Position numbers and translations under genes: made by a program. Under the pieces are notes generated by a model. The model was not told the origin of the DNA, did no database searches, and was given only the letters and a program-made list of their open reading frames with translations. A stretch of 47,253 nt of DNA from a virus: IMG/VR virus record IMGVR_UViG_3300020471_001814, positions 1-47,253 of that record; one strand, 5' to 3'. This document shows positions 39,854-47,253 of the stretch, one piece after another (the first letter of the stretch is position 1; each line of letters opens with the position of its first letter).

Positions 39854-40459
39854 TTAAATAACTTCGTCTATTAATCCATACTCTTTACAAGTCCTAGCAT
39901 CCCATAGCAAATCATGTTTAAGTATTTCACTAAGTTCTTTCATAGGAACTTTGGTATATTTTTTGTAGACATCTCTGATTGTATTCATCATCAAATCTAA
40001 ATTCTGTTTTTCATCTTCAAAGTTGGCATAAGTTCCCCAAAAACTACTTGATAGTTGATGTATCAACATATATGAATGCCTACTCATAGCTCTATAAGAA
40101 CCAACAACTGAGAGAAATGTAGCTGCACTAGCTGCAAATCCATCCACATAGGTATGAATTGGAACTTTACATCTCAGTATTGTATCCATAGATGAAATAC
40201 CAGCTGTTATAGAACCACCACCTGAATTTATAAATACTTTAATTGGTGGTGATTCATCTAAATCCAAAGTATTTTTTAGTGTCAAACTTTTTGATTCTAT
40301 CTCACCTATCTTTTTATTTAACTCTGACACACTATTTCTATTTACACCAGCATAATAGTAAATTTTGTTATCTTGTACTGATATATGTTTTTCAGGTGAC
40401 ACATTTTGTGCACTCTTCTTTGATTTTAATTTTTTATCACCCCAATGTCTATTCATCAT
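39854..40459 (-). CDS. ClpP-type serine protease
   Basis: 201 residues. INSGGGSITAGISSMDTI (77-94), catalytic serine S111 in DGFAASAATF, catalytic histidine H134 in MLIHQLSS, and D183 or D187 near the end (LKHDLLWDART). The first 30 residues are basic and phage-specific. ClpP-like enzymes in T4-like phages are sometimes head-maturation proteases, but this one sits in the replication cluster and looks like bacterial ClpP, so a proteolytic role in infection is also possible. It shares one base with the clamp loader gene upstream. Confidence 0.85.
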   Translation of the reverse strand: MMNRHWGDKKLKSKKSAQNVSPEKHISVQDNKIYYYAGVNRNSVSELNKKIGEIESKSLTLKNTLDLDESPPIKVFINSGGGSITAGISSMDTILRCKVPIHTYVDGFAASAATFLSVVGSYRAMSRHSYMLIHQLSSSFWGTYANFEDEKQNLDLMMNTIRDVYKKYTKVPMKELSEILKHDLLWDARTCKEYGLIDEVI

Positions 40460-41373
40460 TACTTTATCACTCCTAATAGTTCTATTAACATAGCCATAGC
40501 ATTTATTTCTTTATCAACTACTTGACTATCTGACAATTCATATCTAGCCAAAATTAAAATACATTCCGCTACATGACCTTTACCCCAATCATCAACCTCA
40601 TCATATAACAAGCGAAATAAATCAGCAAAGTCTGTAATCTTATTGTCTGCTAATAATTGTCTAATATCTTTGAAAGCTGTTTTCTTATTTTGTGTTTTCA
40701 AAATCTTTAACAATTTTAATTTGTAATCATTCTGTATTATACTTGTCGTATCCAATTTAAGTTTATTATTGACAACATTTCTCTGTGAAGAATTGATAAT
40801 TCTACGAATGTCTGGATAACCACTATCTATCAATACTTTTAAGTCATCCATTTCATGAGTCACATTTTCACTCAAAAGTATATCGTGAATATGTTTTGCA
40901 ACCTCACCCTTTGATGGTGGTATAATCTGAAACGATTGACACCTACTTTGTATTGGGTCAATAATCCGTTCCACATAATTACAAGTCAATATAAATCTAC
41001 AATGTTTACTAAATGTTTCCATTAGATTTCTTAGAGCCGCCTGAGCATTTGGTGTTATGTAATCACACTCATCTAAGATGATAATCTTCATATCTTTGAA
41101 TCCGATAGTAGAAGCAAAGTTTTTAACTTTAGTCCTAACCGTATCAACATTGTTCTCATCGGATGCATTAATATATAAGTAATCACATTCTATATTCTTA
41201 ACAAGTAATTTGGCGAGAGTGGTTTTACCTGTACCAGCCTTGCCGAACAGTAAAAGGTGTGGTAAATCTCCACTCTCAAGATATACAGATACTTTACTTT
41301 TGAGATGTTCGTTCCCAATGTAAGTGTCTATTGTTGTCGGCCGATATTTTTCTACCCATAAACTATGACTCAT
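40459..41373 (-). CDS. Clamp loader large subunit, gp44-like
   Basis: 304 residues, AAA+ ATPase. Start WVEKYRPTTIDTYIG (6-20) is the replication factor C/gp44 box; Walker A GKAGTGKT at 44-51; Walker B DECD at 101-104; SRC arginine finger in IDPIQSRCQSF. It loads the gp45 sliding clamp with the gp62-like partner at 39082-39564. The start lies inside the end of the Mom-like gene (11-base overlap). Confidence 0.92.
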   Translation of the reverse strand: MSHSLWVEKYRPTTIDTYIGNEHLKSKVSVYLESGDLPHLLLFGKAGTGKTTLAKLLVKNIECDYLYINASDENNVDTVRTKVKNFASTIGFKDMKIIILDECDYITPNAQAALRNLMETFSKHCRFILTCNYVERIIDPIQSRCQSFQIIPPSKGEVAKHIHDILLSENVTHEMDDLKVLIDSGYPDIRRIINSSQRNVVNNKLKLDTTSIIQNDYKLKLLKILKTQNKKTAFKDIRQLLADNKITDFADLFRLLYDEVDDWGKGHVAECILILARYELSDSQVVDKEINAMAMLIELLGVIK

Positions 41374-42139
41374 TGTAAATACCTTTGTTATCTACTTCAT
41401 ATTTTATAACTTCTGCTTTGTTTAAAGCCTCTTTTGGATAAGGCAATAGTGGGTGTTTTATTGTATTCATAAATAATTTGTTCTCTTTTTTATTACCAAG
41501 AAAATATAAATATCTGTGTTTTTCTGCTTCTTTCTTTAGCCAAAATGTGTGTCCTATTTGTTTCTTTAAGTGTTCAACATTACTACTACCATATAACGAG
41601 TAAACAGTTCTACTATGAATCCAATCACCATCCTCTTCTATTCTCAAACTAAAAGTTGGTGCCATCTGAATATCACCACATCCTTGATATAACCAATTTG
41701 TCGCTTGATATATTCCACCAGCATGATTTTGCTCTGGATCAGCGTATGATATCAGAACTTTTATATCAGGTGCATTATTCTTCATCCATTTAAATGATTG
41801 AGATATAACATAAGATTCAACATTCTTTCCATATCCATCGTGAATAAAGAGTCTTGTTAATTCTAAAATATTTTTAGTAGTTAACTCTAAATCATCTTTG
41901 AATATAGAACCTAACACTCTTCTACCAATTGGAAATCCATAAGCTATACAACCAATTAACTTTTCTTCAAGCTCATCAAAAAACTTATGTTGATTACCAG
42001 GCTGGTAGAAAACTCCCAATGCATACCTACAAGAAGATAACCTACCGCTGTAATGATTTTTTTCTATTATGCTTTTTGCTATTGGTTTCTGTATTGGCCT
42101 TAAAAGAATTTTTGAAGTGTCACAAAGATTAGTCGTCAT
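41363..42139 (-). CDS. Mom-like DNA adenine modification enzyme
   Basis: 258 residues, GNAT-like fold. NHYSG (28-32), LIGCIAYGFPIG (61-72), LELTRLFIHD (92-101), VLISYADPEQNHAGGIYQATNW (about 128-149) reproduce the conserved order of the Mom family, whose Mu founder adds a carbamoylmethyl-type group to adenine in phage DNA. Such modification protects DNA from host restriction. It is placed between clamp and clamp-loader genes with 11-base overlaps on both sides, suggesting tight co-expression with replication. Exact chemistry is inference. Confidence 0.8.
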   Translation of the reverse strand: MTTNLCDTSKILLRPIQKPIAKSIIEKNHYSGRLSSCRYALGVFYQPGNQHKFFDELEEKLIGCIAYGFPIGRRVLGSIFKDDLELTTKNILELTRLFIHDGYGKNVESYVISQSFKWMKNNAPDIKVLISYADPEQNHAGGIYQATNWLYQGCGDIQMAPTFSLRIEEDGDWIHSRTVYSLYGSSNVEHLKKQIGHTFWLKKEAEKHRYLYFLGNKKENKLFMNTIKHPLLPYPKEALNKAEVIKYEVDNKGIYNES

Positions 42140-42848
42140 TAGTTGATGCTACTAACCAATAAGTTACACTAAAATCATCTACTCTAAAAGTAATTTTGGA
42201 TAACCCCTCACTACTAACTTCCAATGTAGCACTTTCACATTCTTTATTAGCAGTAAGCACTTCTTTAAAAATGTTAGCATTAAAAGACACATTATCAATA
42301 TTACTTGATTCTTGTGTAGTAACTGGAATAGTAACTCTATTAGTATTTATTGAAGCATATCCTATCACAATTTTAGTTTCACTACCATCTGTAATAACTG
42401 TAAAGTCATCAGTTTCGGCCAAAGCACCTTTACCTGAAATAAACTTACTCATTAAATTTGGTGTAACATCAATTTTTAGTTCAAAATTTGGTACAGTTTT
42501 TAATTGTGGTGGTTTACTAATGATAGATGTATCACTTAACATATAATTTACCGAAGATGATGAATCACTTACTTTTAGTGCAATTGATTTATCACCTGCT
42601 TTATTTATAGTTACATTGATATCTTCATCTAATACAGAAAGTAATTTCAATAATTGTTCTGTACTGTATATACCAACTTCAGAATCTTCAAACTGCCATT
42701 TATCCATTTCCAGTTCACCTAATAAAGTTTTATCACCTGATATAAATCTGGCTAACAACTTATTCGATTTACTGTTTAATACTACTGAATTAACTGTTCC
42801 ATTCAAGTAATATTTATTAATGAAACGAACTAGTTTTTGTTTATGCAT
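42129..42848 (-). CDS. Sliding clamp, gp45-like
   Basis: 239 residues, close to T4 gp45 (228). All-beta/alpha clamp composition without catalytic motifs; ends with a strand-rich C-terminus (KITFRVDDFSVTYWL). A good SD (AGGAG, 42854-42858) precedes the ATG. Position directly after the DNA polymerase and before the Mom-like and gp44-like genes supports the call. Would be a trimeric processivity ring for the polymerase. Confidence 0.85.
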   Translation of the reverse strand: MHKQKLVRFINKYYLNGTVNSVVLNSKSNKLLARFISGDKTLLGELEMDKWQFEDSEVGIYSTEQLLKLLSVLDEDINVTINKAGDKSIALKVSDSSSSVNYMLSDTSIISKPPQLKTVPNFELKIDVTPNLMSKFISGKGALAETDDFTVITDGSETKIVIGYASINTNRVTIPVTTQESSNIDNVSFNANIFKEVLTANKECESATLEVSSEGLSKITFRVDDFSVTYWLVASTNDD

Positions 42849-42907: not shown

Positions 42908-45427
42908 TCAAAAAAATCTTTCCATTGTTTTAGAAGAATCAGTTGGTTCACTCCAACCTAATGATTCATACAACATCATAATTTTTTTGTGTAAAGCTTG
43001 TTTGTAAAGTTTATCTGGATTTATAAACTGTCTAATAAATGATAAAATTTCAGGTGGGTCTTCGTATCCTTTATAAGCCACAGTTTCTAATCCAATCGGA
43101 TTATTTTTTAAATATATCCACTTAATTTTTTCCCCATTATGTATCTGTGAGTATCTTCTCTGAACATTAAAGTGTTTCAATAAATCATTATAAAATAAAG
43201 CACTTTTTACATGAACTGGTGTTCCTAATTTGTAACCACGAAACATATCACTATCTTTAATTCTATACTTTGTAATACCCTTTACACTTGTTGGTATTGC
43301 TATCTTATCAAAATCCATCAACTTCATACTGTTTTTGAAATTTAAAATAAACTTATCTAATTGTTCTTTAGGTACATCCATCAGAATATCTTCTAATAAC
43401 TTACTCAACATCTCTCTCATCGCAACTGGAAAACTAGACCTAACTGTGTCTAATCCTTTTACCATCAGTTTATTTACTTTCTTTCCATTATCATTAATAA
43501 TTTTTAAACCATATCTTTTTTTAGTGACAAACAAACCACTTTTAGCGATAACTTCCTGTTTGATGTCAAATCTGTGTTTTTGTAAATTACAAAATTTCTT
43601 AGCAAAATAGTTGTAACTCTTATTAAGATATTCTTGAACTTCACCACAAATTTCCATAATTCGTTTAGTCATCTCCACTTCAGTAAATACCTTATTTGGA
43701 AACCTTTTTTTAATCAATGGTAGAGCTGAATAAAAGACAGAATCCGTATCAATGTAAATACAATAATTTTCTCCATCATTAAGTTCTGCATTGTAGTAAA
43801 AGTTAGCAATCTTTTTTGTAAACTTAATCAATGATTGGCCAGTATAAGTAACAGCTTCTGCATTATCCAAATCGTAAAATCTGAATACAGGTAATCCCAA
43901 TACACCATACAAACTATTTAACAGAACTTTCTGAAGATATTGTCGTCTATCAAAATAATCCGATTTATCTTTGTTTCCTTCTTCATGAAACTTCTTTGAT
44001 AACTTTCTATATTCAACTCTTTCATCGAACCACTTTCTTAGTAGTGCTGGTAGTAAACCATCTTTATCTGTGCGATACATTACACCATTAGTTGCGATTC
44101 CAATAGACCTATCTTCTAAATAGTCCTTTAGTTCTTTATCTGTAAATCTACCTAATACCTTTTCATCATTTGTTATAGAATATGTTTTATCCGTGCCTCT
44201 AATAAATTCCTCAGGATTCCATCCTTCTAATTTACCAATTTTTGTTTCAGGTGATATATTCAATGACATAATACAAGACGGATACATAGAGGTAATATCT
44301 AAATCATATACCCAATTATGTTTACCCTTAATTGGATCTTGAACATAAGCACCAACAAATTTATCATTAGAAAACTTTTTTGGTTTTTTGGGTTTATTGG
44401 GAGCTACAATATTTTTCTTTCTTAAATAAACTAATATAGCACCCTCTAAATAACGAGAACTCATAAACACATCCTCATATGGAACGTGTCCTAAATGAGC
44501 CAAACCTCTAGCTATTTCAATAAAATCTAATTTATCATCTAACTTCTTAACTAGTTTAACATCTTGCAAGTTATAGTCTATAAATTTATCTAAATCATTT
44601 TCATATAAATCGTTGAGTGTTCCCTCATAAGCGACTTTCTTCTCACCAACTTCATATTCACCAATGGCATCTAATCTATACGATGACTTTTCACTAAATG
44701 TAAATCTTTTATATAATTGTAAATAGTCTAATATACTAACACCAGCAATTTTATATCTCTTACTGAAGTCACTCCACTGTACATTCATAATCGGTGATAA
44801 TACATTAGCTACATTCTGACCAACTATCTTACAAGCTCTGTTGTAAAGATATGGAACATCAAAGAACTCTACATTCCAACCTGTTAATATGGTTGGTTTG
44901 ATTCTTATATACTTCATAAAGAATGCATTTAGTAAGTCATATTCATCGGTAAATGACTTTATTATTTCATTACCATTAGTTGATGTTTTAGTATCATCTA
45001 ATTTTAATTTATTCGCAGTGTCTAATACATAACAAAAGTATTCATCAGTTCTTGAATCGTTAAACCCTATGGCAGTTACTCTGTTTTCTGCTTTATTTAC
45101 GTCTGGAAAACCCTCAGTAACTTCCACTTCAATATCAAATATCATTGTGCGATGTCCAGTAGAAACATCATCTGAATCTGTGTAGTTATCTACCAAAACT
45201 CTGATTTCAGGATTAACATCGGATTCAAATAAATTAGATTGGTCTTTATCCCATTTAGTAATTCTTTTTAATCTATCCCCATACAACGAAACATAGGTTC
45301 CAGCTTTACTCTTAGTGTAAGCATATTTTTTATAGCGAAATGTTTGGTGACCAAACTTGTCATCCCAAACATGCATTTTGTTTAAACGTCTATCGTAATA
45401 TATATTCTGATATATAACTAACTCCAA
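42908..45427 (-). CDS. Family B DNA polymerase, gp43-like, TTG start
   Basis: 839 residues. Exonuclease motif FDIE (D98, E100); polymerase motif A DLDITSMYPS at 375-384; motif B NSLYG at 504-508; motif C YIDTDS at 558-563. The C-terminus ends SSKTMERFF, a likely clamp-binding peptide as in T4/RB69 polymerase. The frame opens at a TTG (45427-45425); no ATG exists before residue 18, and the N-terminal beta strand (VIYQNIYYDRRL) matches the expected start of the family, so the TTG is plausible. An out-of-frame leader frame overlaps this start. Preceded by a strong promoter. Confidence 0.95.
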   Translation of the reverse strand: MELVIYQNIYYDRRLNKMHVWDDKFGHQTFRYKKYAYTKSKAGTYVSLYGDRLKRITKWDKDQSNLFESDVNPEIRVLVDNYTDSDDVSTGHRTMIFDIEVEVTEGFPDVNKAENRVTAIGFNDSRTDEYFCYVLDTANKLKLDDTKTSTNGNEIIKSFTDEYDLLNAFFMKYIRIKPTILTGWNVEFFDVPYLYNRACKIVGQNVANVLSPIMNVQWSDFSKRYKIAGVSILDYLQLYKRFTFSEKSSYRLDAIGEYEVGEKKVAYEGTLNDLYENDLDKFIDYNLQDVKLVKKLDDKLDFIEIARGLAHLGHVPYEDVFMSSRYLEGAILVYLRKKNIVAPNKPKKPKKFSNDKFVGAYVQDPIKGKHNWVYDLDITSMYPSCIMSLNISPETKIGKLEGWNPEEFIRGTDKTYSITNDEKVLGRFTDKELKDYLEDRSIGIATNGVMYRTDKDGLLPALLRKWFDERVEYRKLSKKFHEEGNKDKSDYFDRRQYLQKVLLNSLYGVLGLPVFRFYDLDNAEAVTYTGQSLIKFTKKIANFYYNAELNDGENYCIYIDTDSVFYSALPLIKKRFPNKVFTEVEMTKRIMEICGEVQEYLNKSYNYFAKKFCNLQKHRFDIKQEVIAKSGLFVTKKRYGLKIINDNGKKVNKLMVKGLDTVRSSFPVAMREMLSKLLEDILMDVPKEQLDKFILNFKNSMKLMDFDKIAIPTSVKGITKYRIKDSDMFRGYKLGTPVHVKSALFYNDLLKHFNVQRRYSQIHNGEKIKWIYLKNNPIGLETVAYKGYEDPPEILSFIRQFINPDKLYKQALHKKIMMLYESLGWSEPTDSSKTMERFF

Positions 45428-45464: not shown

Positions 45465-45494
45465 AATATACAACTAAAACCTAACATAAGTCAA
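45465..45494 (-). promoter_or_regulatory. Sigma70-type promoter of the DNA polymerase
   Basis: On the minus strand: -35 TTGACT (45494-45489), 18-base spacer, -10 TATATT (45470-45465), with CCTTGACT and GTTGTATATTAAGG context. Transcription would begin about 30 bases before the TTG start. It lies directly behind the terminator of the receptor gene, so the polymerase unit is transcribed independently. Confidence 0.78.
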
Positions 45495-45507: not shown

Positions 45508-45533
45508 AAAAAAGGGGGGAATAAATCCCCCCT
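45508..45533 (-). terminator. Intrinsic terminator of the TonB-receptor gene
   Basis: On the minus strand: an 8-base stem (AGGGGGGA with TCCCCCCT) around a 5-base loop, followed by TTTTT. It is a textbook rho-independent terminator, placed 13 bases after the receptor stop. The only hairpin of this strength that I see in the window. On the plus strand no T tract follows. Confidence 0.85.
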
Positions 45534-45545
45534 AAATTTACCATT

Positions 45546-47252
45546 TTAGAAATTAACAGTTAGTCCTAAGTTGTAGTATCTTGGTGTTCCCAAGAATACT
45601 TCAGCATTATGAGCTAAGTGAAGTTTATCACCATACCCATTGTACCTACTGTTATCAGTAGCATCTTGAACATAAACATCATCAAGAGCATTAAAGACAT
45701 GACCGTGTAAAGTCAAGTCCAAACCAGCAATCTCTGGTAGTTTGTAAGATAGATGTAGGTCTAATTTAGAATAGCCAGGAGCTTTCCAAACCTGTGCCCT
45801 ATCAGCTTCACCTTCTACCTCACGAGAATCTGGTGACCAATCGGCATAATTGTCATCATAGATTTTTAACAAACCTTGAATGTTCAATCCTTTAATTGGT
45901 TTCAATGTCAAACCACCAACATAAGCAGTCTGTGGCATATCTCCAACTTTAAGGTTGTTTAATGCATATTGGTATTCAGTAGATGTCTGTCCGATGATTT
46001 GATTATCATCATTGTATTCCATCTCTGTGTAATCACCTTGTGCGTCTCCATCGAAGAACCAATCACCTTTACTGAAAGCAAAGTCAACCTCTACCATTTC
46101 GTGTAGAGCTACTTTAGCCTCAACCTCAACACCACTATGACTCTGATTTACACCAGTTAAATAAATGATGTCTGTGTCACCTGAGTCACCTTGTCCTGTT
46201 GTTACAGATTTGGTAAGGTTTCTATCTTTCCATTGTGTGTTGTAGTAACTACCTTTGATAGCAACTAATCCACTTCTGTAAGAACCACCAACTTCCATTG
46301 ATGTGAACTTCTCATTATCAGGATTAGAAGCAACATTACCATCATAGTCAATTACATTGTCCAAGATAGGTGGTTTCTGAACATACCCAAGATTAGCAAA
46401 AGCAGATAATCTGTCATCAAGATTAAATACACCACCACCCTTTACTTGAAAGGTTGTAATAGCTGGTGCCTCTACCTTTTCAAAATCGACTTGAAAATGG
46501 TCATCATAGGAATATCCAATTGTAGATACACCACCCATACCATATAGGTTGAACTTCTGTATGTCGTATTTACCTTGTACGAATGCTCCAAACCAATCAA
46601 CAGTTGTGTTGTTGTGATAAGCAATAATATCACCTAACCCAACTTTTTTACCATCTGGTGCATTGTCATCAGCGAAGTCTACATAGTAGTCTCCACCAAG
46701 TAAGTCACGAACCTCTCTAGCATGTTCGATACCAGCAGTTCTCCAATCGATACCAACTTGAACCTCTAAGTCATCATTGACATCATAGTTTAACTTGGAA
46801 ATCAAACCATAGGTATTTTGCCTATTGATTGAATTACGAAGTATTCCTGTGGAACGATTTTCGGTATCTGACCAATCAGAATCTACATTATCAGAGTTCT
46901 GAGCTATTTCAGCATCCCAATCCCAAGTCCACGGTGAACTTGCATACCAAGGTGAACCTTCAATAGCAGGCACTCTACTGACACTACCATAAGTTCCAGT
47001 TCCACCACCTGAACCACCACTCCAATACAATATTGAACTTACATTAACCCTATCATTTACATCATAGAAATGATTTAAGTTAACTAGTGGTTTATGAAAG
47101 AAGTTTTCTCTTTCATTCAATAGATTACCAATCTTTCTGTCTGTTGTCCTAGCACCATACATGTACCAGTATTGTTGTCCTGTATAACTCTCGTCAACAG
47201 GTGCCCAATTCTGATTGAAGAACCTACCAGCTTCATGTTCAAACTTCTCTCC
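45546..47252 (-). CDS. TonB-dependent receptor, C-terminal part (5' end beyond window)
   Basis: The frame is open to the window edge; 568 residues are visible. It is an outer-membrane beta barrel: alternating aromatic and polar strands with turns rich in D, G and N, and repeated pairs such as VEVEAKVALHEMVEVDFAFS. Near the end, APGYSKLDLHLSYKLP, LTLHGHVFNALDD and the terminal GLTVNF with final phenylalanine are typical TonB-receptor C-termini. The plug domain is not visible. GC is higher than in the polymerase gene (22 and 24 of 60 at 45601-45660 and 46861-46920, versus 13 of 60 at 44521-44580). It has its own strong terminator, so it looks like a late-acquired bacterial gene. Style recalls marine Bacteroidota or Marinimicrobia receptors, which I cannot verify. 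Confidence 0.85.
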   Translation of the reverse strand, partial: GEKFEHEAGRFFNQNWAPVDESYTGQQYWYMYGARTTDRKIGNLLNERENFFHKPLVNLNHFYDVNDRVNVSSILYWSGGSGGGTGTYGSVSRVPAIEGSPWYASSPWTWDWDAEIAQNSDNVDSDWSDTENRSTGILRNSINRQNTYGLISKLNYDVNDDLEVQVGIDWRTAGIEHAREVRDLLGGDYYVDFADDNAPDGKKVGLGDIIAYHNNTTVDWFGAFVQGKYDIQKFNLYGMGGVSTIGYSYDDHFQVDFEKVEAPAITTFQVKGGGVFNLDDRLSAFANLGYVQKPPILDNVIDYDGNVASNPDNEKFTSMEVGGSYRSGLVAIKGSYYNTQWKDRNLTKSVTTGQGDSGDTDIIYLTGVNQSHSGVEVEAKVALHEMVEVDFAFSKGDWFFDGDAQGDYTEMEYNDDNQIIGQTSTEYQYALNNLKVGDMPQTAYVGGLTLKPIKGLNIQGLLKIYDDNYADWSPDSREVEGEADRAQVWKAPGYSKLDLHLSYKLPEIAGLDLTLHGHVFNALDDVYVQDATDNSRYNGYGDKLHLAHNAEVFLGTPRYYNLGLTVNF

Positions 47253-47253
47253 A

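Follow-up and report, generated by a model that had tools for sequence, protein, structure and literature searches.

Between the ribonucleotide reductase (RNR) gene and the DNA polymerase gene of a T4-like phage lineage lies a cassette made up of an RNA pseudoknot leader, an intact TonB-dependent receptor (TBDT) gene and a terminator. In our reading, to which we give about an even chance as a whole, the cassette is mobile and under selection, derives from Marinimicrobia and would import a substrate for viral DNA synthesis, regulated by its leader. The window, by which we mean the whole 47,253-nt stretch analysed, is a 47-kb linear viral record with a fragment of the receptor gene in its last 1.7 kb.

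The receptor frame runs on the minus strand from 47252 to 45546 and encodes 568 residues, or 538 counted from the first ATG. It is open at the contig end, with the 5' end of the gene and its leader outside the window, and represents the C-terminal 62% of a protein of about 910 residues, the barrel part only. The fragment alone matches no Pfam, PHROG or NCBIfam model and its identity therefore rests on full-length relatives; from an IMG/VR scan with the fragment, the best 80 of 192 relatives were kept. The complete receptor in relative L011 has 910 residues and comprises a hydrophobic N-terminus, a CarboxypepD_reg domain, a plug (PF07715, E 1.3e-12) and a barrel. Its AlphaFold2 model (mean pLDDT 81.6) aligns with BtuB over 530 residues (Z 39.1, rmsd 2.5), and it possesses both the plug and the 22-strand barrel that define TonB-dependent receptors. 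The original prediction of a TBDT barrel at the window's end is thereby upheld, full-length relatives matching both Plug and CarboxypepD_reg. Before the plug, in the part outside the window, a LEVLASRA segment is as conserved as in hosts, the TonB box being assigned by position.

The receptor is not placed in the SusC/RagA subfamily (TIGR04056), for which it scores 56.9 bits where 368 are required, and no SusD-like gene was recognised at the phage slot. Fold matches include siderophore and B12 transporters, which are the closest solved structures, at 11-18% identity, as well as the FhuA-pb5 and FhuA-Llp structures. In the viral structure library just one full-length protein is comparable, a SusC-like receptor encoded by a marine phage that is likewise uncultured (A0A8D9FQQ5), at 13% identity. 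Among INPHARED phage proteins there is no close TBDT relative; the best are about 30% identical and lie on unannotated gut contigs that are possibly bacterial.

The receptor stop codon is separated by 118 nt from the start of a T4 gp43-like family B DNA polymerase gene on the same strand (42908..45427, minus strand; 839 aa; PHROG 262, E 4e-185), an arrangement that the open reading frames and the PHROG match confirm as first described. Within this gap lie both of the signals that had been taken to be intact there. One is an intrinsic terminator of the receptor, GGGGGG-ATTTATT-CCCCCC-TTTTTT (45508..45533, minus strand; stem 45533-45513 plus T tail), which received five overlapping calls against 0.2 expected and is arranged in the same way in relatives. 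The other is a sigma-70-like promoter of the polymerase, TTGACT-18-TATATT (45465..45494, minus strand), present also at loci without the receptor. Also on the minus strand are the genes for the DNA polymerase processivity factor, or sliding clamp (42129..42848; PHROG 223, E 1e-13), a conserved downstream partner, and for a clamp loader subunit (40459..41373; PHROG 168, E 1.5e-83). Inside this replication module a Mom-like DNA modification protein, recognised by profile matches, is encoded at 41363..42139 (minus strand), and further Mom-like copies occur in relatives, L011 among them. Elsewhere in the window, overlapping genes for sugar-nucleotide and glycan functions span about 28 kb (4711-32643, minus strand) and form a very large phage-carried surface-polysaccharide cluster, with genes for GDP-mannose dehydratase, epimerases, DegT aminotransferases, WbqC, a sulfotransferase and glycosyltransferases.

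The claim that the receptor gene differs in base composition from its neighbour stands as regards overall GC, which is 0.39 against 0.29-0.30 in the polymerase. The excess lies in the first and second codon positions, however, while GC3 is near that of the polymerase (0.27 versus 0.23). Because GC3 is phage-like, the shift mostly reflects amino-acid content; recent foreign DNA is ruled out as its explanation, and the phage-like GC3 argues for long residence of the receptor in phages. It also tells against a chimeric assembly or bacterial contamination, an idea to which the GC shift at the junction and the ending of the contig within the gene could lend some colour. The identical junction recurs in more than 100 viral loci, T4 structural genes are found on long contigs and a phage-specific leader precedes the receptor in relatives, so that an artefact of this sort is rejected, its probability being practically negligible. 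The gene was thus rightly seen as natural phage cargo, and beyond position 47253 the flank continues upstream, in relatives, with the phage genes RNR, helicase and RecA-like rather than with bacterial chromosome.

Among IMG/VR viral loci with enough flank, RNR lies upstream of the receptor in 67/67 and the gp43 polymerase downstream in 105/105, and all 82 complete receptor reading frames are intact, with none truncated; some contigs are represented by two loci in these counts. The wider gene order in relatives is helicase, RNR, TBDT, polymerase, clamp and clamp loader. The presence of the receptor is variable: of 78 loci found via the polymerase, 45 have it, 23 lack it and 10 are too short to tell. 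At many receptor-less loci the RNR gene ends right at the same polymerase promoter, others have glutamine synthetase in the slot between RNR and polymerase, and receptor-bearing slots may also contain glutamine synthetase, dUTPase or DNA methylase. On the polymerase tree, the distribution of the receptor requires at least eight gains or losses. The phage glutamine synthetase, which alternates or co-occurs with the receptor, is only about 330 residues long (L227 5964-6950, L193 2037-3029, L013 7337-8314). At one receptor-less locus, L174, a tRNA-like sequence, recognised by eye, fills the slot between RNR and polymerase.

The T4 gp23 capsid and gp20 portal genes are present on the long relatives L011, L223 and L006, and the closest cultured polymerase is only 46% identical; for both reasons the carriers of the receptor are assigned, by gene content and similarity, to an uncultured T4-like lineage. 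The window itself has neither gp23 nor gp20, its T4-like markers being gp43, the clamp and the clamp loader.

The closest bacterial proteins, at 59-70% identity, are chromosomal receptors of Marinimicrobia (SAR406, Fidelibacterota), one of them on a 570-kb contig. Phage receptors form one cluster inside those of Marinimicrobia, apart from a gene of a Marinimicrobia MAG (L082) nested within it, and this topology argues for descent of the phage receptor from Marinimicrobia. A single phage clade excluding the MAG gene was rejected by the AU test (p 0.007). That gene (L082 986-3736) lacks the phage leader and lies beside a second, different TBDT; it may represent recapture by a host, misbinned phage DNA or a second transfer. 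Judged from receptor ancestry only, we infer that Marinimicrobia are also the hosts infected. The phage polymerase was found in three of 245 Marinimicrobia genomes, with no receptor slot in those examined and hence no direct host link.

Within the phages, pairwise distances between receptors are uncorrelated with those between polymerases (rho 0.05), whereas polymerase distances follow those of clamp loader, RecA and helicase (0.64-0.74). This indicates that recombination at a fixed slot carries the cassette from phage to phage; RNR distances follow the receptor in part (0.41). The dN/dS of the phage receptors, at about 0.14, points to purifying selection. Being host-derived, placed between phage genes, intact and under selection, the gene has the genomic attributes of a candidate auxiliary metabolic gene. 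The extracellular loops, assigned from the DSSP strand order of the L011 model, are no more variable than the strands in phages (entropy 0.57 versus 0.56), in contrast to host loops at 1.00; near-fixed differences between phage and host receptors number 4 in 910 sites, and conservation of the TonB-box region and plug in phages equals that in hosts. Conserved loops and few fixed differences fit a transporter that still handles the ligand of the host receptor, and fit a decoy poorly.

Every one of the 82 phage receptor leaders whose 5' end is complete has a covarying element of 35 nt, which precedes the ribosome-binding site and ends 24-40 nt before the start codon. Its consensus is ACAGG-CAGnn-GACACA-CCTGT-nnAAAAA-TGTGTC and, since its two helices interleave, it is an H-type pseudoknot. 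Across 34 distinct sequences 98.4% of cells are paired and four pairs have changes on both sides, with G-U intermediates in L023 and L067. Neither the pairing nor the covariation score was equalled by any of 500 shuffles, and pairing falls to 18-56% when the helices are set in shifted registers. The window has no leader because the contig ends inside the gene; we infer that its own receptor copy has one too.

A pattern scan of IMG/VR returned at least 116 occurrences of the leader and, among the matches listed, 116/116 stand directly before this receptor, its identity confirmed by BLAST in 107; the other nine are on contigs ending within the first residues, mostly with a typical start. The element was found in none of the 245 Marinimicrobia genomes, in none of the receptor-less relatives and at no host receptor locus. 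H-type folds of 5+6 bp can be drawn in 17 of 72 host leaders; they share no sequence and were set aside as chance products of AT-rich DNA. Rfam 15, whose models score pseudoknots incompletely, gave no match at gathering thresholds for eight loci and nothing credible for two leaders when E was relaxed to 10. The two weak minus-strand matches per leader were dismissed as chance.

Short H-type pseudoknots with an A-rich third loop are known in the 5' leaders of T4 gene 32 and of the preQ1-I and SAM-II riboswitches. The phage leader resembles these in form and location, but differs in matching no Rfam family, in sequence and in standing before an outer-membrane receptor. It would control translation of the receptor, as a riboswitch sensing a metabolite or as the operator to which a phage protein binds. 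Were it a translational operator for a phage replication protein, receptor synthesis would be timed with DNA replication, in a manner compatible with import. T4 gene 32 provides the precedent, and the phage-only distribution, the absence from the receptor leaders of the donor and the scarcity of invariant unpaired bases outside the CAG and the A-rich loop all accord with the idea. However, one might expect an operator for a replication protein to recur at other sites, and no second copy precedes other genes of these loci; we consider the operator a serious candidate, if somewhat short of an even bet. A small pseudoknot riboswitch of a new class confined to phages, which would sense a nucleotide-type metabolite and tune the captured importer to the demand for DNA precursors, seems to us improbable, though not strikingly so.

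Clues to the substrate come from bacterial gene neighbourhoods. Among 54 wider bacterial (FCB) relatives with a downstream flank, 17 have a gene of the type I phosphodiesterase/nucleotide pyrophosphatase family (PF01663) at most 500 nt downstream on the same strand. These linked relatives, from Ignavibacteria, Balneolaceae, Bacteroidales, Calditrichia and others, are only about 45-52% identical to the receptor. In nine genomes checked, each with 2-10 PF01663 matches, the receptor-adjacent gene is the genome's strongest. Marinimicrobia receptors are themselves found with S1/P1 nuclease and PF01663 genes upstream (L086), with S1/P1 nuclease (L100) and with deoxynucleoside kinase (L083, L090, L119), but such neighbours are few in this donor clade, where the usual one is an SRAP gene. 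The regularity with which the Marinimicrobia receptor gene follows this HMCES/YedK-like SRAP gene can be seen in L245, L246, L083, L086, L090, L095, L098 and L101. PF01663 enzymes also act on non-nucleotide esters. Phosphate-starvation TBDTs of Flavobacterium are encoded with phosphodiesterases (PMC8115612).

Given the PF01663 neighbours and the phage slot beside RNR and polymerase, a slot which otherwise carries glutamine synthetase or dUTPase, import of a nucleotide or phosphoester is suggested. It is the likeliest substrate class, although we hold it only tentatively and at less than even probability, the case being drawn from neighbouring genes and weaker in the direct donor clade. That the receptor functions in import of some kind is, on sequence grounds, probable. 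We envisage capture of the cassette of pseudoknot leader, receptor and terminator from Marinimicrobia, followed by its insertion downstream of RNR and ahead of the gp43 promoter. The receptor mRNA probably continues from the RNR gene, since no clear promoter of its own was seen. The protein would then be exported by the host Sec and Bam systems, energised by host TonB and would bring in a substrate supporting viral DNA synthesis, whether precursors or phosphorus. The suggestion that the gene alters uptake by the infected cell thus gains partial support from the retained plug, TonB-box region and barrel and from purifying selection, transport being likely and the substrate tentative.

The receptor might instead import a generic scarce cofactor for RNR or respiration, such as iron-siderophore, haem or cobalamin, and have no part in nucleotide supply. 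The neighbouring RNR could need B12 or iron, and the closest solved folds are those of siderophore and B12 transporters; at such low identity, however, fold matches do not discriminate ligands, and the model-based comparison singles out none. Among the bacterial neighbours scanned PF01663 appears repeatedly, but nothing recognisable as a gene for siderophores, B12 or haem, and we think cofactor import rather unlikely. Less credible again is superinfection exclusion or receptor replacement, by which the phage would flood or replace a host receptor used by competing phages. In its favour, phages often use TBDTs as receptors, the fold matches include FhuA-pb5 and FhuA-Llp, and the gene is swapped among phages and variably present. 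A competing phage should nevertheless still bind a receptor whose loops are so host-like; the TonB-box region and plug would be needless in a decoy, and the gene sits beside RNR and polymerase rather than exclusion or lysis genes. Exclusion is accordingly less well supported than transport. Neither masking or replacement of the receptor against superinfection nor a bias of host range, both raised in the original prediction, agrees with the loop conservation and the few near-fixed differences, which are not those of a decoy that has diversified or lost binding. The Lc porin of phage PA-2 and Llp of T5 are phage-encoded changes of the receptor surface that block superinfection, PA-2 by flooding or replacing the host receptor. 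The present gene would share with them the alteration of the outer-membrane receptor surface by a phage, and differs in its host-like loops and retained transport parts.

The nearest phage parallel is found in marine megaphage Mar_Mega_1, whose SusC-like TBDT was proposed to raise uptake during infection (PMC9723777). The resemblance to Mar_Mega_1 and other huge phages (PMC9723777; LR745206, LR756502) is that a marine phage encodes a TonB-dependent receptor, but the family is different, the L011 receptor being 27-28% identical to those of LR745206 and LR756502 over about a quarter of the protein. The Mar_Mega_1 receptor was reported as a single gene, in contrast to the cassette described here, which is widespread, swapped between phages and equipped with an RNA leader of its own. 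The Flavobacterium PUS loci (PMC8115612), induced by phosphate starvation, also combine TBDTs with phosphodiesterases and phosphatases; they are bacterial, of PusCD type with SusD partners, and are compared here by gene setting and not by receptor homology. Among the open-access papers searched, none reports the cassette, and TonB is unmentioned in PMC11360552, PMC7174320, PMC4981710, PMC5332604 and PMC7029224. The parent lineage, the chromosomal TBDT of the SRAP-linked Marinimicrobia locus, has the same architecture, but lacks the pseudoknot leader and has more variable loops.

Auxiliary transport genes of phages mostly encode periplasmic or inner-membrane parts. Here the gate of the outer membrane is itself encoded by a large group of phages, in which it is kept intact, swapped and fitted with its own RNA control element, which suggests that these viruses reprogram the uptake of the infected cell. 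The leader sequence serves as a marker, always followed in IMG/VR by this receptor among the matches listed, and the pseudoknot offers a specific handle for finding the signal to which it responds. If import is indeed the function, phages of a major uncultured ocean phylum would set the uptake of their hosts during replication.
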